From Romanomermis culicivorax (Eukaryota; Nematoda; Enoplea; Mermithida; Mermithidae): DNA of 64,000 bases. The notes beneath the pieces were generated by a model. The model searched no databases. It had not been told where the DNA came from and saw only the letters and a list, made by a program, of their open reading frames with translations. A program made the translations under genes and the position numbers. Shown piece after piece: positions 32,885 through 45,935 of this stretch (position 1 is the stretch's first letter; every line of letters starts with the position of its first letter). The stretch spans positions 1,178,001-1,242,000 of the forward strand of contig CAWUHX010000005.1 in the NCBI GenBank assembly GCA_963922205.1, written 5' to 3'.

Positions 32885-35300
32885 ATTCATTGTTTTTATC
32901 CTTGATCATCGAACAATATTTCTGCATTTTAGCTACTACACCTTATTTTTCCATTTTGTTTGCCCATGCTTATTAGATTGTGAAATCCAGGATGAAGTAC
33001 TGCTTCTGTCTGTGAAATCCAAAATTTAAACTGTAACCATCACTCATTTGTGTTGTCCAATGAAATATATACTTCTGTTTGAAGTGTTGTATCTTTTTAC
33101 CTAGGCATCGTAGAAAGATATTTTAGGATGCATTATTTAACATTTTTGAACTGCTTTTTTGTTCAAAAAAAGCTGCTTTTTTGCAGAATTTTTTGCACCT
33201 GACCGGTTCTTTAATGTGAGTTAAGAAATTTGGTCAACACAGCTGTAAATTTAGTCAACTTTGAATAGAGATTTCATTGGACGTTTATTTACACATTTTT
33301 CTGAATTTATTTAATTTTTCAATTTTTTTACAAACTTTATTATTATCATTGTCCAAACAAACTGTGTTCCAAATATGTTCAAAGACAAATCCTTGGGAGA
33401 ATTCAATACCTCTGGTGATGAATATCTAGTGGACTATGCTGAGGATATAAAAAATCATTAGAAGATAAGGAAAAACAATGTTAGACATGCAAAATGTTGC
33501 CTAATTATCCACCAATGAGAGGATACTCACATTGGAAGATGAATTTTTCGAATATTAATATTTGAACTTTATTTTTTCATGTTGAGATTGTAAAATTTTA
33601 TTGACAAAGTAAAGCAGGCATAATCTATACACTGCTTAATTATCATGAAAATTTTTATGAAAAAAATAATTAATTATCACCTCAAGGGACTGTAACGCCC
33701 GTTTTCTACTCTGTAATTTTACTTGAGTCAACAAGTCGTCCAGGGGCGGCACACGATAAACAATACGAGAAAAAAGCAATAATTGACAATGATACGCAAA
33801 TAAAGAACTCGCTGACGGCTTTCTTTAGCGTCCACGCACAAAAATAAAAACCGTCTCAAGCTTCCAAACGCGATTTGCATAAAACGAAACACTAATAAAA
33901 ATCTCAATAAAAGTCCGTCTTTTTCGGGTTCTCTTGTCTTTTATACCGATTCTTTGGTCCACGCCCTTGCGTCGTGGGGGGTGGGCTTCCGTCGGCTGGC
34001 CTAACTTATCGCTGCTTTGCTTACCTGTTTCCCCCTACTGTATGCTTCTTTAGCCAGGCCTCTTGCTTTAATTTATTCTTGATTCCCCCGCTTACATGCT
34101 TTATTCTACAGTACACTTTGCCGCCTCTATATTTTTTAGTTTTTCGGTTTTCCATGCATTCCTCCTAAATCTTCTGTCTGGGTGGAATTTCTGTACTTTC
34201 TACATGGGCAGGTGTGTTTACTCGTTTGGAGGGAATTATTGTACCTACAAAATTTGTATTTTCATGTGCATTAGGAGGGCCAGGTGCCAATGTGCAAATA
34301 ATTATCTGCGTCTTCAATTGGGTCAATGGGGTGTGGGACGATCAAAATAAAGTGCTTCACTTGAATTTGTAAGAATGTTTGGGTGTGAATTCCAGACACC
34401 CTTGGGACGATAGATTATAATATTAATTTATATTTGAAAATGAATATCACATACTGTACAATTTGTATTTACATTAATGCTTCAGCATGTACGTTACAGG
34501 ACAAAGAAAGTTTAATGTCAAAAGGTCAATGCTTCGATGCAAATTTTTGCAGAATTTCCCAATGTTTATTGATTTCCAGGTTTCTCATTGTTTTCATTGA
34601 AATACTACATCCTCAATTTGAGCAACTGGCCCTCCTACTTCAGAATATCAGAATAAAGTACTGATGCATGATGCATGGTTTGGGCCAAATATTCATTTCT
34701 TGAAGCAGTTCATCTATTCAATTGTGAACAATTTTGAATGTCAATGCATGATTCCAAATTCCTGAAATGGAGGTCATTTCGAAGCTGTTATCACAAATAA
34801 GATTGACTGACATATTGACAATAATAACTATAATCGTAATAACTAAATTCTCTTTATCTCTTGAACTACATTCTATAACAAGTGCAAGAAATGCTGAAGA
34901 TTGATGTGCTCAATATGGATAATTAAGATGGCTACTATAAATTCAGCCTCTGAGTGGAAATACGAAGAGGTAGCAAAACAGTGGAGCATTTCAAACTTCA
35001 TTCTTTAGCCTGGAAAACATTTCTTTTTCACAATAACCTTTGAAGGCAGACGAGTTTGGCAGCAGATCAGCCTGTTAATTTAGCCTTAGAATCATATTCA
35101 TACCATTATTCCAATCACTCTCAAGATTGAGAGAAAGTACCTTAACTTTTATTGAGGAGGAAATAACAGAGCTTTGAATTCATTCACCATGCAAACGTCA
35201 TATGAAGTTATTTGACTGAGAATTAATGACGTTTCATCAGATTTAAGGTGTATAGCTTAGCTGGCCCAGTCATTTGTAACCAGGATGACCTAATAAATTT
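32885..35300 (-). repeat. long dispersed repeat R1, copy 2 (inverted, interrupted by LTR)
   Basis: Reverse-complement copy of 22540-24500. It is interrupted by a solo LTR at 33691-34498 and lacks the part corresponding to about 22600-22880. With copy 3 (35816-36640, forward) it makes a head-to-head inverted repeat around a spacer of about 500 bp. Confidence 0.8.
33691..34498 (-). mobile_element. solo LTR, 808 bp
   Basis: The insertion in R1 copy 2 begins TGTAACG and ends CGTTACA, a perfect 7-bp inverted TG...CA terminus. It is flanked by a 4-bp duplication GGAC (33687-33690 and 34499-34502). R1 copy 1 shows the uninterrupted target (GGGATAAG on its reverse strand, about 23630). On the minus strand a TATA box (TATAAAAG, 33937-33944) lies about two thirds along, which sets the promoter orientation. 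No internal retroelement genes adjoin it, so it is a solo LTR left by recombination. The 4-bp duplication fits a Gypsy-type element but does not prove it. Confidence 0.85.
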
Positions 35301-35760
35301 AGAAGAGACATGCCAGAAAACAAGTGAATGGTCAGCTGAGAGAGAATGTATGACACATTATACTGTAGGTTAAATTTCTGTTACTGTAATAATCAAACGA
35401 CCACCAATGAAGGTAGCTTTAGAAAAAAACCTAAACTGTGCACAAATTCAAAAATTGACAGGAATGACCAAAAGTGTTGTAAAAAGCTGAAAATCCAACA
35501 TTATGTGACAATACATTTCAGTTTTTTAAGTTTCTGTGAAACATGGCTCCCTGTTTGAAAAAAAACAGAAAAAAGAGAAAGCCCAAGCTCTAGTCGATTT
35601 GGACAATGAAACGTGGTCCTTCACCAATACCAAAAAATTAGAAAGAAGTCCCATCGACAAAGGGCAAAAAGGTTTTGTAACATTGCCGAATATTGGACGA
35701 ATTTCTTGAGTTGTGAGGGCAATAAGCAATTCCATCACATGATTATCTGACATCCATACA
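35300..35760 (+). repeat. repeat R2, uninterrupted copy (Harbinger empty site)
   Basis: Matches 53277-53482 joined to 56061-56300, the two halves of the copy split by Harbinger. The single TAT at 35502-35504 (CATTATGTGACAATACATTTC) is the unoccupied target. The right half contains a decayed frame (KKEKAQALVDLDNETW) matching the frame at 56102. Confidence 0.9.
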
Positions 35761-35815
35761 AAATGTCCAAGCCGATATGTTTCAGACATTGAATTTGTTC
35801 AGGAGTTATTATAAT

Positions 35816-36640
35816 ATTGGTATGGATTTCAAACATGCTAGTGGATGAAATTCTGAGAGTTTATCATAGAATGTTTTCTCTATAGAACATGTAGGCTGGC
35901 AGTCAGTTATTGGCAAGCTGACTCTCAAAATCTAGAACTCCTCATTGATGAGGATGAACTATGATGCACTGTATTCATTTCCTCTAGGCCATCCTGGTTA
36001 TAAATGACTAGGCCAACTTAGCAATACACCTTCAATCTGATGAAACATGAATATTATTTTGTGATCTTTTTATGCAGGCTCCACACATCACACAAAGTTC
36101 AAACTGGCGCAAAAGCTATGTGAAAATAGTTTTGTGAACATGAAAGCTGCAGGAGTCTTCAGTCGAAATTCTAGCAGATAGCTCTTCTAAATGATCTTTT
36201 GCTCTGTTGGAAAACTCACAACCTATATGTACTCATCTTTCAAGTATGTTGAAAGAGGTATTTTGGTTATTCCCTCTCTGAACAAGTGATGATCAGCCAT
36301 CTTGGACTATGTGATGTGATCATTTCACTGTATCATTAATTTTCAGTCAAATAACTTTGTACTTGATATGATCGTTTGCATGGCGAATGAATTCAAAGCT
36401 CTGTTATTTCCTCCTCAATAAAAATTAAGCTCCTTCCTCTCGATCTCAGGAGTTATTGGAATAATGGCATGAATATGATTCTAACGCTAAAGTAACAGGC
36501 TGATCTGCTGCAAAATCCTCTGGCTTCAAACGTTAATGTGAAAAAGAAATGTTTCCCAGGCTAAATGATGAAGCTTGAATTGCTTGACTGTTTTGCTACC
36601 TGTCTTATGGGAATGAAAGACTTTATATTGTCAGCCAAAA
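35816..36640 (+). repeat. long dispersed repeat R1, copy 3
   Basis: Forward copy of 22411-23190, starting ATTGGTATGGATTTCAAACA and ending near TGACTGTTTTGCTACCT. Confidence 0.8.
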
Positions 36641-36919
36641 ATTTGATGAAAAAATGAGGATTCAGAGAGATTACCAAAGTGAGTTTCCTGAAAACAAAGA
36701 ATAATAAAAGTTTTCAAGTTTTCAAACAAAGTTGGTATTTTTTCGGAAATTCTCTCTCCTATGTTGCACACATTATATGTGGCAACCCTCAGATTATTTA
36801 TGCAACCAAATTAGTTTGAAAGTGTCCTATGTAACACAGGTTGTTGTTGAGGCGAAGGGTTGTCTAAAGGTCTATTTTCAGTATAGTAGAAGACAGATTT
36901 GAAGGGGTTTCCTCAATGT

Positions 36920-38090
36920 AATAGGCTATCCCTTCCTTGCCATTTCGATGGGTCCTTGATATCCTGATGATCTTTAGCAAGACCAACTCCCCAGTTTTTA
37001 TCATATGGGCTAGCCTCAACTAAAATGGTGGACTCGTTTTGAATAGTTCCTCACAGAGGTCTTTGTTCTATTCATACTTCAGGGTGTTAGCCTGAATAAG
37101 TTTTTGTATGCAAGTTTGGGCCATGTGCCAAGTTTCTACTCATCCCAGGAAACTTTTCCCCCAATCCATTTAGCCTGTTTTGCTTCTTTAGCCTGCATAA
37201 TTTCTTTGGCTCTAGCTAAATCTCCTGCCTAGACTGCCTCTTTGAAAAATAGAAACTCTCCTATGCATTTGTACTCAGTGCCTTTTTCATCTTTAGATTT
37301 ACATGGATAGTGATTCAATTGAAAATCTGATTTCATGTAAAACCACATAATTTTGACTGAAGAATTGGTCATTGGAGGTGGTGCCACTGTAGTAGAAGAT
37401 GCTGGGGCCGCCATGGGTTTTGGTTCAGTGACTGCTGCTGTGTAGCTACTTTTGGGAGAAGCAACCAGTGCAATGTTACATTCTTTGGCCATATGTCCAA
37501 AAATCATACATTTTCTGCATGCCTATTGCCTGATACGAACTTTAACAGGGTTCTTCATAGACTTTCCTTGGAACCATTTATAGCCACTAAATTGGTATTT
37601 GGTTGGAACTTCTACCTGGACAGATCATTCTCCAGTACTTATTCCCAGATCTTTGGGGATAGTCCTTCAAAAAGCAGATGTTATGCGCTACTTTGGAATG
37701 AGGCTTGTTTGGAATACAAAAGGCTACTTTGGAATGGTCTACAAAAATCGGCATATTTGGGAAATGAAAAACTCGCAGACGGTCTTGGTGTTGAGTTGGT
37801 GCCACCAATTCGACTTGGTACAAAAATAATTTGATTTTGTCCTTGTAGCTCGATCACACTGATCTTTTATGTAAAAGAAGAATTTGAAATTACTTCTAAT
37901 GTGAATGATAGGTTGCAGTGGAATTCCAACCGGATGAATTCTTGGATAGTTTCAAGAGTGGATCTATTTTGTAGAAATTTGTAGTCCTTGAAATTAATGT
38001 AAGCAGTAATCTCGTTCATTTTTTGTTGTTCTTGATCTTTCAATGTTTCATTATCATTCATAGGCATGATCAACCTCCAGATCTAAAGAT
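36920..38090 (-). pseudogene. LINE ORF1 relic: CCHC zinc knuckle plus NADAR domain (copy 2)
   Basis: Minus-strand pieces encode a LINE ORF1-like protein. The N-terminal frame is 38073-37867 (MNEITAYINFKDYKFLQNRS). A segment with YKWFQGKSMKNPVKVRI leads into a CCHC knuckle, C-RK-C-MIFG-H-MAKE-C (about 37485-37525). A Pro/Ala/Ser linker follows. Then comes a NADAR domain with YKCIGEFLFFKEAV, RAKEIMQAKEAKQAKWIGGK, WDE, KYEQNKDL, and the signature VEASPYDKNWGVGLAKD with WQGR (about 37030-36930). Several frame changes and stops break it. No ORF2 follows; R1 copy 3 ends shortly beyond. It is diverged from the copy at 43345-44770, so the two are separate insertions of related elements. Confidence 0.8.
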
Positions 38091-39359: not shown

Positions 39360-42300
39360 AATAGGACTCAAATACTTTTTTCAAACAAGTTTTTTCTAGG
39401 TGGAATATTATATTCCTGGCCATTTTCTTGAAATATGTCCAAATGCAGTGAAGTTTATTACTTCTCTCATATTTACCTCCAGTATGCCATATACTTTTCT
39501 GTCCTATTTATATCATGAAATTCAGTAACACTATTTTTGTTTTCAGACTGGATTCCAAAGGTTTTATTTACTTTTCCTACATTGTTCAGATTTTTATTCA
39601 TCTTTTTAAGTGTAGAGTTTAGTTTCTCCCAGAAAGTTTGTACTCTGGGACAATCTATGAAGACATGTAGTAGAGTTTCTCTTTTGTTTTCATTCCTATC
39701 ATAACAATATTTCTGTTCTCATTTAAATTCTTTTTGAAATGGTTCGTTCATGAAGTAGTTTGTAGAAATCTATATATTAATGCAAAATGTGTGTTTCTAA
39801 TTGATCCAGGAACAAATTCAGTCTAGTTTAGCTTCAATAAAGATAAAACTTCTTGCTTTGTTATTCCTAATATGTTATGCCAGTAATTCATTGGATATTT
39901 TGTCTTATGCATATTTCTCCTCAGAATATCATATAACATATTTGTACTTATTTGATCCCATGTTATTATCCTCTGATCTACCTCAATTTCCTGCTCCATT
40001 TCTTAAAAATTTCCTTTTTTTGAAGCTATTCTTATTACTTTATATATATAAGGAATGTTACTGTTTAGTAGCTGATTATAGCGCTTAGAATTAGCTATTT
40101 CTACATAATGCCAAAAAATGTCTGATCCTGGAACATTTTTTCTTTTGAATTTAACTTTCAGCATATAGATCGGAGCCATTTGCTTCAGTTTTATGTTAGA
40201 TTTATTCCTCCTTACTCAATGTTTGTCTGTAGAGTATCTGTTTTAAGTGGTACTCTTCCAGTTCTAGGATACCATATGTATTTTACACATGCATTTTCCA
40301 GTTCCTTAACTGTGTTGCTTTCTACTTCAGTAAAGCTACTCACATACCATAATTTTGAAAAATTGTATGTGTCTATTATCCTTGCTCTTCCAAGATATGA
40401 GACATCATAACTCACTAGTCTTGCTTTTAGAATTTCTGCATCTGCCCTAATTTTGTCATAATTTGACGTGTCAGTACCAAATCTGCTAAAGATAATGTCA
40501 TATACTTCTAACTTTGTAACTAAATATTTCTGATATCTCAATGGAACATATCATTTATATATTCCACCAAAAATTAGAATTTTAGTTTTTTCACCTATCA
40601 GAGTTGCTCCACTTGCACTTTTAAACATTTTATAAATTTCTGTTATCCTGTGAATTGGTTCGAAGTTTGAAATCAAAAAGTTTGTATCATCTGCTTAATT
40701 GGAAACCTTATATTCTTGGTTTTAGATTTGGATTCCTATCACACTGCTCAAGTTTCTAATCTAATTTGTAATTATTTCTGCTCCATTAACATACAGTAGT
40801 GCAGATAATGGGCATCCTTGCCTGATACCTCGTGTTATTTTAAATGGGGTTGATATATTGACATTCACCTGAACTGAGGTTCTTGCATGTAATTTCTTAT
40901 AAATGATTCGTATCCATTTTATGAATTTAGGACTAAAATTAATATATTCTAAGGCTTTAAAAAGATAATCTCACTCTATGATATTGAAGGCACTCATGTG
41001 ATGTGATGTGATCTGTGATCCACAGACGATATAATGCCATTCTCTTCATGCTCATTTGCATAGTGAATTACGTTATACAGAGTCATTATTGCACCATGTA
41101 TATCCCTATTTTTGACTGCACATTTTTGATCTGTATGAATGATTTTTGGCATCACTTTCATTAGCCGATTAACTAAACCCTTTGCTAATATTTTATAATC
41201 AACATCCAGCATAGTTAATGGTCCTCAGTTTTTTAGATTTTCTTTCTCCCCTTCTTCTTTACAGAGTTGGGAAATTATTCCATAATACATAGAGTATCCC
41301 ATTTTTTCATTAGTATATATTACCTTGTATAATTTCCTCAAGTATGGAAGTAGAATACTTTCATATTTTTTGTAAAATTCAATAGGTATTCCATCACTGC
41401 CTGGCAGTGTTTTTTTGTACTCGGTCCATTTGTACTGGTACAAACGACCTCTCAAAAACTGTTTGTACTCCAAAATTTGCGAAAAATTGCTGAAAAAAGG
41501 ATTCTTTGTTATAAAATGCAACAAACATGCTGTGAAATATGAATGTGTAGGCTATTTTGAGGAGACACATAAGAAGGCTACAAATTTGGACACATAAAAC
41601 ACTTGACCATGAGGCCCATAACATGCATTAGTGAAATACTCGACAAAAAGCTTTTATCATCCCACAGCTGCTAGTTTGTTGTTTTCCATGTGGATGCATA
41701 AAAAACAAGTCCTACAAAGTTCATTGATACTGAATACTAACAGCCTTGAGTAACAAAAATTTTTTTTGTCCAAAAGTTTCCGTTTGTACTGGTAAAAACC
41801 ATGCCCAAATTTTCGTTTGTACTCTGGACCATGTTTGTAAAGTAAAAAAAAACACTGCTCCCCCTGTCTTATTATTTTTAAAACTTTTTATTGCTTCACT
41901 TATTTCTTTTTCAGTGATGCATTCCTCAAGCATGTTGTTATCCTCTTGGTTTAGGGTTTTATTAGGTTGTTCAAGTAAGAACTCTTGTAGAACTTCTCCA
42001 TCTATCCCATTTGCAATGAATTTTACACTGTATTGATTTCTTACCTCATTCAAAATTTCATCACAATCTTCCACAATGCATCCATCAGTTTTCAGAATTT
42101 GTACAGTATTCTTTTCTCAAGTGACTTTTTTTGAATCCTTGTTGCTGTTGATAATGTATATCTCTCAGTTAGCAACTCTCTGAAATGTGTTGTCTTAAGT
42201 TTTCTACGTATATTTTCTTGTTCAAGTTTCCTCTTTCTTTTATCTAATGATTTAAGCTTCTCATTTATTTCTTTGCTGTTTGGAAATGAAAATAGTAGAG

Positions 42301-43282: not shown

Positions 43283-43344
43283 GCATTGATTGATAACTCA
43301 TACTCTTAAAAATGGTGCTCACACCCTTATTCTCCAGAATTCAT

Positions 43345-44770
43345 TTAAACTGACTTTTTATGCCCTCTCTTTGGTGATTTACTTTCATGGGGCCTCTTCA
43401 AACTCGGTCTGTGACTAGTAGGCTTGATGAACTCAGGCCCCTTTCCGAGCACCTCCATCATCTACCTCTTTGGTTTCATCAAAAGCTCACCAAAAACATT
43501 ATTCCTGGATGGGCATCCGGATCTTCTGGGGCTAAACCACAGCCCCAATAATTATCATAGGCATTGGCCTCAACCAGCAAAGAAGGGGACATCCCAAAAA
43601 ACTTCGCCCTTAACTCTGGGTTTTGCTCGTACTTGTGTGCCTTGGCTTCAAATAGAGTTTTGTGGGGCCAATGGTGCCACGGTCCAAGTCTTGCAGTGTC
43701 CCATGCAACTTTGTCGCCCGATCTTTTTGCTATTGCCACATTTTTTGCATTCAAAATCTGATCTGCTTTTTCATCCTGGCCAGCCATCTTTGCTTTGTAA
43801 TAGAATGAGTAATGTTCTGTCAATTGGAATGTTATCATATTAATGGTAAAAGGAGCCATATAATGGTTTGATAAATAATTTTTACAAGTAATAAAGGGGA
43901 TTATTTTTGTTTTGGTGACTGTTTCACCTGATGTGGCCGTATTATCTGTTTCCAATGGAATCACTGCCATTGCAATGTTTTGATTACCCTGGTCAGGCTC
44001 TTTTGGGGCTGGTGCCTGACTACCAGGTTTGTACTCGGCCCCATATGAGCTACCAGTTTTGTTCCTGGATTCGCTTTCAGGGCCGCGGCATACGACCCTT
44101 TCAAAGGTTTGGTCACCACTCTGATTCAATTCTGAGCAACATGGCCAGATTCCATACATTTCTGACACCAGTTGGTCATATTGTAATGCTAAATTTCGGC
44201 TTTAACCACATTCTGCATACCCTTTGTTTGGAACCAGGCAAAACCTAGAAATATGAATTTGTGGTGAACTTCAACCACTACGGAGCAAACTCGAGTTTTT
44301 ATTCCTGTATCTTCCACCTCAAGCCATTTGGAGTCAGAGATAAATTTAATATTTATGGACTCGTCTGGTACCTTTATAGGAATGTTACTAATATGTTAAG
44401 TTCTTACCCGAGTGTTCGATCTTTGCCTCGGCAATTCCAACATCATTTGAGTGTTAAAAATTATAATAGGTAATTCCACAGCCTTGTCCCGTTGTTCTGG
44501 GCAGCTAAAAGTAAATTGAAAACAATCAAATTTAGAAATAACAAATCTGGACATGTGATATTAGTGTTGTCGTTCCAGATTGATAAAATGAGGTCCAGTC
44601 CGGATTAGCCTTGAGAGACAGCATTGTTCTTCTTCCTCAAAAAAGCTGATCAGTACAATAGCTTTGCCGCTTCTGTTTGGTCTAACATGACCTCCTCATC
44701 ATCTGTTTAGCCATCTTCACTATTGTCTCCATCTTCTGACAAATTTTCACTCATTTATCCCATTGGGCAG
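43345..44770 (-). pseudogene. LINE ORF1: CCHC zinc knuckle plus NADAR domain (copy 1)
   Basis: An acidic segment (NLSEDGDNSEDG, about 44740) opens the frame. A part with FAWFQTKGMQNVVKAEI leads to a zinc knuckle C-QK-C-MESG-H-VAQN, in which the last Cys codon is a stop (TGA, about 44125). After a frame change, 43479-43930 encodes a NADAR domain: IIPFITCKNYLSNHYMAPF, the F-x-x-x-E-H-Y segment FQLTEHYSFYYKAKMAG, KYEQNPELRAKFF, and LVEANAYDNYWGCGL. A further frame change leads to the C-terminal NADAR signature NNVFGELLMK (about 43470) and a basic tail (PSLKRPHESKSPKRGH) ending at 43345. NADAR proteins are known to act on ADP-ribose-linked substrates, including removal of ADP-ribose from guanine bases. 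The domain is complete but broken by two frameshifts, and lies about 60 bp upstream of ORF2. Confidence 0.85.
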
Positions 44771-45360
44771 TCCAGTGGATGTTTTCCATTTCTTTGGCTC
44801 AGGTGGTGGATAATCAGCAGATTTCCTTTTTTGCAGCCATAGAGGCCTTTGCAACAGCTTCAGTAAGCTCAGGTCAAAATACCAACTCGTTAAGATATGC
44901 TGCCAGTGGTGGTAGAGTCATTACCACAGTGAAGACCAGGTTCGAATTTTCAGTCTCTGCGGTAGAAATAACAGCACCAGTGGTTTTTTTCAACAGCGCC
45001 TTTAAGGGTGTCTCATTATGGGCTACGAACCCAGACATAAGAGGGGCCATGTCTCCTGGGAAATTGACCAGCTCTCCATCCACGAAAGGTAGGGTAGAGC
45101 AAACTTGGTGACGTTCAGCTGCAATCAAAGCAAAAACTGATCTTTGTAGAACTCTGATAATAATAGCGAGGTGGACCCAAGCTTTATAATATTTTAGAGT
45201 AAAAACCGATAAGTTTCAGGATTTTCAAACTTGTCACCAAAACATGAAACATCATCCATATGGGAGAACCATGAAAATCAAAAACACTGTCAAAAATGGG
45301 GGCACTTCAAATTTCAAAAGTGACACTTCCTTGACTTGCTGTAGTTTGTAAACCCGAATT

Positions 45361-45935
45361 TGTAACACAAGGATTTTAACCCTGTTCAATAGAGCTTAAA
45401 AAACTGCACATGCTTAAAAAAAGAGATAAATGTTCAAGAGAGAACCAGAATTTAAAACATGGTTTCTGGCATTGGTCACAAGCCTACTGTAGAAACAAAC
45501 AGCACAAACTTCAGTGCTTAATAACTAAAAAACTAAGAGTCCGTCAACTATGAGCTTTACATTGCTGGATAGGGCATTGAAACCTGCACTAGTGGTAAAA
45601 ATTGGAGTCAAACTCGCTCAAATTGATTAGTTAAAACAGCGTTTCTTGTACTAATGTAACTTGAGTGCAAAGTATAAACATGAAAAAGACATCGTACACT
45701 TTGCTCTCTAATAATTTTTCAACTAATAATTGTAGAACAAATTTGTTGATGCTGCCCAATAGAGTTAGAAAAACTGCACATGTTTGAAAAAAAGAGAACT
45801 GGAATCCATTCGACTGACATTTTAAAACATGGTTTCTGGTATTGGTCACTAGCCTACTGTAGAAACACAGAGCGCTCACTTTGGTGCTTAATAACTAAAA
45901 AACTAAAAGTCCTTCGACCATGAGCTTTCGAAGAT
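45361..45935 (+). repeat. tandem duplication, about 370-bp period
   Basis: TTTAAAACATGGTTTCTGGC...GCCTACTGTAGAAACA (about 45452-45497) recurs at about 45821-45866. The same holds for CAATAGAG...AAAACTGCACATG (45389 and 45759) and GTGCTTAATAACTAAAAAACT (about 45513 and 45884). Confidence 0.85.

Follow-up and report, generated by a model that had tools for sequence, protein, structure and literature searches.

A NADAR domain as a regular part of ORF1 in L1/Tx1-type LINEs of the nematode Romanomermis culicivorax

Why should a retrotransposon carry a NADAR domain in its first open reading frame (ORF1), and what might the domain do there? The question was raised by a stretch of 64,000 nt from the genome of Romanomermis culicivorax, a mermithid nematode parasitic in mosquitoes (contig C5, positions 1178001-1242000), referred to here as the window; the coordinates below are positions in it. 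A preliminary description of this DNA, made from its letters alone, had noticed five NADAR landmarks on the minus strand, preceded by a CCHC knuckle and followed at about 60 bp by ORF2 of a long interspersed nuclear element (LINE). We located the NADAR domain at 43880-43518 (minus strand), C-terminal in ORF1 of a nearly full-length dead LINE (copy A), where it lies in an open frame and keeps the catalytic E, K, E, D and W. This 240-aa frame (44201-43479, minus strand) matched the Pfam model PF08719 with its residues 108-228 (E 6.7e-18; 65.9 bits against a cut-off of 35.1), so the hidden Markov model (HMM) check proposed for NADAR came out positive, and it also matched solved YbiA-type NADARs by sequence (8bau, E 1.8e-7; 2b3w, E 1.2e-5). 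All five landmarks were recovered: LSNHYMAPF, TEHYSFYYKA, KYEQNPELR and LVEANAYDNYWGCGL inside the 240-aa frame, and NNVFGELLMK one frameshift beyond it, in 43500-43348 (minus strand). The CCHC knuckle was present at 44167-44126 (minus strand), identified from its motif spacing and aligned to residues 5-18 of the public gene model P0001; it sits in a different frame from NADAR, and its last Cys codon is now a stop. Knuckle and NADAR end lie outside the 240-aa frame because copy A has been frameshifted. ORF2 resumes at 43297, about 50 bp past the ORF1 stop. Copy A, with remnants of ORF1 and of ORF2, is thus one nearly complete dead copy.

Copy A is not alone. A whole-genome search gave at least 132 NADAR matches at E <= 1e-3; candidates were scored in part (150 of 182 in the NADAR search, 94 of 627 in the ORF2 search and 150 of 170 in the RRM-CCHC search), and therefore all genome counts are lower bounds. 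At least six diverged families have a NADAR-bearing ORF1, and intact two-ORF members were found in at least four, the window's family among them. Between the groups A, A4, A3, B, C, D and E, ORF1 was about 27-62% identical. CCHC motif and NADAR shared one open frame in 17 of the 30 best loci (two of the 17, L081 and L104, stop within NADAR), and in 26 of the 30 an endonuclease-like frame began about 120-205 bp past the NADAR match; in L094, L095, L100 and L107 the first frame of more than 100 aa began later. A frame of at least 300 aa with both CCHC and NADAR was present in 23 of 50 non-redundant loci. Furthermore, five longer loci (L123, L124, L125, L126 and L127) had an ORF1 frame of 384-609 aa followed by a single open ORF2 of 1153-1189 aa; the N-terminal part of ORF1 is in a separate frame in L126, and L123 is the nearest of the five to copy A. 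Twelve within-family locus pairs were 95.4-99.9% identical across 2.7-3.3 kb. Four metagenome proteins of 427-495 aa (P0011, P0042, P0043 and P0044) are ORF1s of the same domain order with 39-47% mutual identity, and the NADAR trees place them among the Romanomermis families. A scan of IMG/VR with ORF2 found no relative. The four proteins that the frame of the window found are all from R. culicivorax. The public R. culicivorax gene models P0001, P0003, P0004 and P0007 appear to be chimaeric, made up of LINE pieces, and P0007 combines pieces of families B and A.

The domain order of ORF1 is predicted to be RRM-RRM-CCHC-NADAR. The AlphaFold2 (AF2) model of P0044 showed two RRM-like folds, at residues 42-109 and 119-201 (an early structure model from four sequences was poor, with a pLDDT of 40, and was not used), and the Pfam RRM models had no match in the scanned ORF1s. 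The knuckle has the spacing C-x2-C-x4-H-x4-C; the zf-CCHC check that had been proposed was answered in part, as relatives do match zinc-knuckle Pfam models, all below cut-offs (for example L124, 19.2 versus 20.8). Each of the four ORF1s scanned held one NADAR stretch, with PF08719 scores of 100 (L123), 115.6 (L124), 109 (L125) and 107.5 bits (L126) against the same cut-off of 35.1. By this measure the domain belongs to the YbiA family of the NADAR superfamily, and the YbiA/NADAR fold is predicted for it. ORF2 is L1-like. In L123 it matched Exo_endo_phos and RVT_1 above cut-offs, and among PDB chains it was nearest to LINE-1 ORF2p (E 2e-72; R2, E 1e-18). The marks of the L1 superclade are there, an apurinic/apyrimidinic (AP) endonuclease followed by a reverse transcriptase (RT), and a poly(A) end with a target-site duplication: L123 ends in an A tail of 69 nt and is flanked by a 15-bp direct repeat, which we take for the duplication. 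A runs of at least 10 followed ORF2 in all five elements tested, and a flanking direct repeat was not found in L124, L125, L126 and L127 (one positive of five). In type I ORF1s an RRM is followed by a CCHC knuckle (PMC4120745); judging from the modelled structure, the present ORF1 would be of this type, with at least one RRM-like fold just upstream of the CCHC.

Is NADAR a fixed part of this ORF1? At 65 of 83 merged ORF2-endonuclease loci a NADAR match stood upstream on the same strand, at a distance of 133-597 bp in 63 of them and of 1.4 and 2.3 kb in two. Among the 18 loci with no NADAR listed upstream, 12 were read over about 2.4 kb upstream and none had a NADAR-less ORF1: 11 had no ORF1 match (5'-truncated) and one was cut inside NADAR. 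From the other side, 97 of the 122 RRM-CCHC loci obtained after merging had NADAR within 1.6 kb downstream. Reading 16 of the remaining 25 showed NADAR remnants in 11; the other five were broken fragments that lacked both NADAR and ORF2 over about 1.7 kb downstream. An ORF1 running from CCHC to ORF2 with no NADAR between was thus found in none of the loci read (12 of the 18 ORF2 loci and 16 of the 25 RRM-CCHC loci); as the searches scored part of their candidates, a distant NADAR-less relative may have escaped. Neither of the two refutations named in the preliminary description came true in these data. For 59 merged NADAR loci no ORF2 match was listed; nine of these were read, together with C110, which has an ORF2 match at a distance of 2.3 kb, and eight of the ten contained LINE ORF1 parts. 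The other two are L142 and L144. L142 (C182:345700-349000) is a host NADAR gene split by introns, with a tail rich in glycine and arginine. Its E125-W133 stretch reads LAIASQDKTYG; therefore its catalytic residues look lost, and it is possibly SNA-3-like, going by its sequence. L144 (C2:247000-250400) is a second weak NADAR match, degenerate or intron-split, with no LINE parts.

Our results revealed that NADAR in the LINE ORF1 is under purifying selection. Within families, dN/dS (the ratio of nonsynonymous to synonymous rates) of the NADAR region was 0.07 and 0.12 in family A, 0.08, 0.34 and 1.04 in A3, 0.02, 0.12 and 0.13 in C, 0.24 in D (one further pair was unchanged) and 0.37 in E. Five pooled pairs, one each from A, C, D, A3 and E, gave 51.5 synonymous versus 27.5 nonsynonymous changes (P 4e-15 against neutrality); the A3 pair used was L127-L129, not L127-L134. 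NADAR was more constrained than the linker in seven of ten within-family pairs. Between A and A4, dN/dS was 0.76 in the linker and 0.18 in the RRM part, and the synonymous sites of NADAR were saturated; between-family values were not used, as synonymous sites were mostly saturated.

The domain has also most likely descended together with the element. Trees of the ORF2 endonuclease, of RRM-CCHC and of NADAR all grouped A with A3, C with E, and D with the (C,E) pair, support for this third grouping being weak in the NADAR tree (64/52); it is from this concordance that common descent is read, and the comparison covers well-resolved branches, family B and the metagenome rows not being placed. In a NADAR tree of 109 sequences (127 before near-copies were removed; oyster, Ectocarpus and nidovirus NADARs were not included), the 12 LINE rows lay on one side of a single branch with weak support (84/12), and P0047 from Ditylenchus, the lone nematode cellular NADAR in the set, lay far off among IMG/VR rows. 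In a quick tree without the very long row P0054 the LINE rows were grouped with an SH-aLRT of 98, and P0047 adjoined them on a near-zero branch.

The active site was compared by the residue roles described in PMC11543638. In the 12 LINE rows E43, K75, W89, E125 and D130 were kept in all 12, and K50 and W133 in 11 each. Glu at position 125, rather than Asp or His, agrees with the YbiA family. Seven of these rows came from the R. culicivorax genome and had passed a motif filter that required E43 and E125; because of this bias the 30 best copies of the genome were taken unfiltered as a control, and here E43 was kept in 28, K50 in 30, K75 in 28, W89 in 30, E125 in 25, D130 in 30 and W133 in 29. 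A site-invariance test (11 rows; 27 of 119 columns did not vary, and these comprised six of the seven sites; P 5e-4) omits the decayed row L094 and carries the same filter bias, and was not used as support. P0042 is the lone row of the 12 with R for K50; K to R in the E. coli C7 enzyme left activity in vitro and abolished toxin rescue (PMC11543638). Family loci, dN/dS values, trees and kept catalytic residues together show that the NADAR of this L1/Tx1-type LINE belongs to its ORF1 as a rule and is maintained by selection, and to this extent they support the reading of the preliminary description.

What would such a domain do? We put the probability at about 0.5 that the NADAR of the R. culicivorax ORF1s works as an N-glycosidic ADP-ribosyl hydrolase anchored to the RNA or cDNA of the element. 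Fold, place and selection are the basis from which we infer activity, substrate and benefit. NADARs remove ADP-ribose from guanine, a eukaryotic member included (PMC11543638, PMC11125620), and packaging of the element RNA is the presumed task of ORF1 proteins (PMC3905857). If the present ORF1 protein coats its RNA likewise, the active site of NADAR would be put beside the RNA or the nascent cDNA, where it could remove ADP-ribose from guanine bases that would otherwise block reverse transcription, and the cleared guanines would let reverse transcription proceed. The element would most likely benefit by evading a writer, of the host or of the environment, that puts ADP-ribose on nucleic acid. 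Tentatively, and as a possibility that we would not rank as probable, the LINE lineage may have acquired an enzyme that removes ADP-ribose from nucleic acid and, while its families diverged deeply, have retained it by selection as a counter-defence, the acidic residue at position 79 being a shift of specificity. If this were true, some animals would restrict retrotransposons by guanine ADP-ribosylation in RNA or cDNA.

Several observations weigh against the hydrolase proposal. With the catalytic residues kept, part of the pyrophosphate contact is changed. R79, which contacts the pyrophosphate in 8bau, was replaced in all 12 LINE rows (E in 8, D in 3, G in 1), and in the 30 unfiltered copies position 79 was E in 23, D in 5, R in 1 and K in 1; this position is R in 63 of 64 IMG/VR rows and 28 of 32 other rows. 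R93 was A in 12 of 12 LINE rows, and A in 28 and T in 2 of the unfiltered copies, A being found there in 14 of 64 IMG/VR rows and six of 32 other rows. With both arginines replaced, the LINE domains may have a ligand specificity unlike that of the tested NADARs, and going by the residues the altered contact may mean another ligand or another binding mode. E125 was changed in five of the 30 unfiltered copies, to K or Q and never to Asp, and the A3 pair L127-L134 had a dN/dS of about 1. DarT had 0 matches in the R. culicivorax genome, and no guanine-specific writer was found in a search that covered DarT and PARP. Guanine-modifying transferases are known from some animals, such as the pierisins of butterflies and CARP-1 of clams (PMC11543638). 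P0047 has E at position 79 too. L108 (C194:174435, family A3) has R at this position, and its near-identical sisters have G.

The alternative that survives best, unlikely as we take it to be, is that the NADAR fold serves as a binding module in the ribonucleoprotein (RNP), for an RNA end, ADP-ribose or a host factor, rather than as a catalyst. It might, for example, couple the element RNA to the cap or trans-splicing machinery in the way of SNA-3, an essential protein of nematode trans-splicing that has three NADAR domains and is coupled to the spliced leader 1 (SL1) small nuclear RNP (PMC9303266), and the uniform loss of R79 and R93 from the LINE rows would suit it. However, E43, K50, E125, D130 and W133 are retained in most copies, and a similar domain is reported from oyster and Ectocarpus elements, outside the nematodes (PMC12477816). 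Next comes, at rather low odds, a substrate among small molecules derived from ADP-ribose or NAD, or among RNA-end derivatives, with a role in RNA repair, on NAD caps or in the clean-up of damaged metabolites. YbiA acts on riboflavin intermediates, and for viral NADARs a preference for soluble derivatives of ADP-ribose or for RNA-processing by-products has been proposed (PMC11543638, PMC9503650); the altered pyrophosphate contact points the same way, whereas the fusion to a predicted RNA-binding ORF1 suggests a substrate bound to nucleic acid.

Still less probable is the version of the preliminary description, in which NADAR would reverse ADP-ribosylation by host PARPs, on the RNA ends of the element or on RNP proteins. 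In its favour, seven matches to PARP catalytic-domain exons were found in the genome, and in vitro the phosphorylated ends of DNA and RNA are substrates of PARP-type transferases (PMC11543638). However, the reported NADAR activity is on guanine-linked ADP-ribose, thymidine-linked ADP-ribose being untouched by the tested NADARs (PMC11125620), and the PARP version fits less well because NADARs are reported to reverse guanine ADP-ribose and PARPs modify proteins and phosphorylated DNA or RNA ends (PMC11543638). That NADAR is a chance neighbour, a gene-model artefact or a dead passenger can be dismissed as almost certainly wrong: both copies in the window are dead and chimaeras occur among the public gene models, but open single-frame ORF1s exist in the genome and in metagenomes, the domain is under selection, and a chance neighbour was rejected on the genome-wide NADAR-ORF2 association and the lack of any NADAR-less ORF1-ORF2 pair among the loci read.

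The preliminary description had known of no established account of such a fusion. This did not hold, as a report of 2025 notes several Tx1 LINE ORF1s of the oyster Crassostrea gigas with divergent Repbase hits that "appear to constitute" NADAR, and suggests a role of such NADARs in processing RNA intermediates (PMC12477816). The oyster elements would thus likewise have a NADAR in ORF1 of an L1/Tx1-type LINE; the likeness is drawn from the description in that report, whose account of them gives no architecture, catalytic residues, selection or intact copies. A Gypsy lineage of Ectocarpus is likewise a retrotransposon with a YbiA-family NADAR, but it is a long terminal repeat (LTR) element with NADAR at the N-terminus of Pol, and the blastp matches of this NADAR beyond Ectocarpus were almost only bacterial (PMC12477816). 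Among the matches listed for NADAR, YbiA and DUF1768 in the literature, most subscription journals being outside the coverage, that report alone joins NADAR with a retrotransposon. A NADAR-retrotransposon fusion is therefore not new to print; relative to what that report describes, the nematode families, the full architecture, the intact copies, the selection and the R79 change are new.

Other known systems share single traits. The CR1/L2 ORF1s of ZfL2-1 type likewise have a hydrolase domain, an SGNH esterase with a coiled coil, and RRM in no case seen in that account (PMC3905857); the Romanomermis ORF1, unlike these, has NADAR after RRM-like parts and a CCHC knuckle. E. coli YbiA (2b3w) and 8bau of P. 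nicotianae share the predicted fold and E43, K50, E125, D130 and W133 with the LINE NADARs, which differ in R79 and R93 and in belonging to a mobile element, where they are joined to domains predicted to bind RNA. NADARs in RNA-virus polyproteins likewise sit in a selfish, RNA-using element and were proposed to act against host ADP-ribosylation (PMC9503650); however, their carriers are viruses, and the likeness drawn here is one of domain and lifestyle. The DarT1-associated NADAR antitoxin (BC4488) has Asp at E125 and a DarT partner, and the LINE NADARs have neither. SNA-3 is a host protein with three NADAR domains, the LINE ORF1 having one stretch. The esterase was described in 2013 as the sole enzymatic function among LINE ORF1 proteins (PMC3905857). 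A conserved ADP-ribose hydrolase on RRM-RRM-CCHC would be a second ORF1 enzyme, placed directly on the transposon RNP, and would offer a testable handle on the role of NADAR in animals and on ADP-ribosylated nucleic acid as a defence against eukaryotic mobile elements. A reporter test is practical, as both frames are open in some copies.

The rest of copy A was traced with L123. Its dead ORF1 (43348-45104, minus strand) comprises an acidic N-terminal part, the RRM-like part, CCHC, NADAR and a basic tail, and reaches 5' to about 45104, past the range of 43345-44770 given in the preliminary description. With the 609-aa ORF1 of L123, tblastn recovered five pieces at 49-82% identity (45104-44763, 44751-44503, 44545-44024, 44141-43503 and 43500-43348). 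The RRM-like RNA-binding part (44168-44545, minus strand) matches L123 ORF1 from residue 192, its RRM fold being taken solely from the AF2 model of the relative P0044. Past the frameshift, the C-terminal end of NADAR and the basic tail (43348-43500, minus strand) are 82% identical to residues 559-609 of L123 ORF1. The dead ORF2 (43297-39292, minus strand), with AP-like endonuclease, RT and C-terminal part, is broken by frameshifts into five pieces that overlap slightly and in which 21 stops were counted; the pieces match Exo_endo_phos_2 and RVT_1, both below cut-offs, and the first 400 aa are 85% identical to the open ORF2 of L123. A MITE-like (miniature inverted-repeat transposable element) insertion of 455 bp lies in the RT (41404-41858), with 18-nt inverted ends that are 94% complementary. 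Two direct repeats about 370 bp apart stand directly upstream of copy A (45342-45928).

A second dead copy, more diverged and more decayed (family B), was found at 37909-36589 (minus strand) in the order CCHC, NADAR, ORF2 start. Its ORF1 (36814-37909, minus strand; RRM-like, CCHC, NADAR) is 60% identical to L126 ORF1 over 37909-37091, and its NADAR has lost the catalytic positions E43 and K50. The ORF2 endonuclease start (36589-36810, minus strand) is 81% identical to residues 1-73 of L126 ORF2 and is then broken off. The block of copies A and B (45104-36589) is repeated on C5, also at 769k, 1626k and 1768k; the 240-aa NADAR frame was found at four places on this contig, each with a B-like fragment 6.6-9.7 kb off. 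The repeated block is either a segmental duplication or an assembly duplication, and some assembly duplications remain in the R. culicivorax assembly (PMC10879605). Inverted repeats of 143, 91 and 69 nt lie at the break of copy B (34968-36601) and are probably another mobile element.
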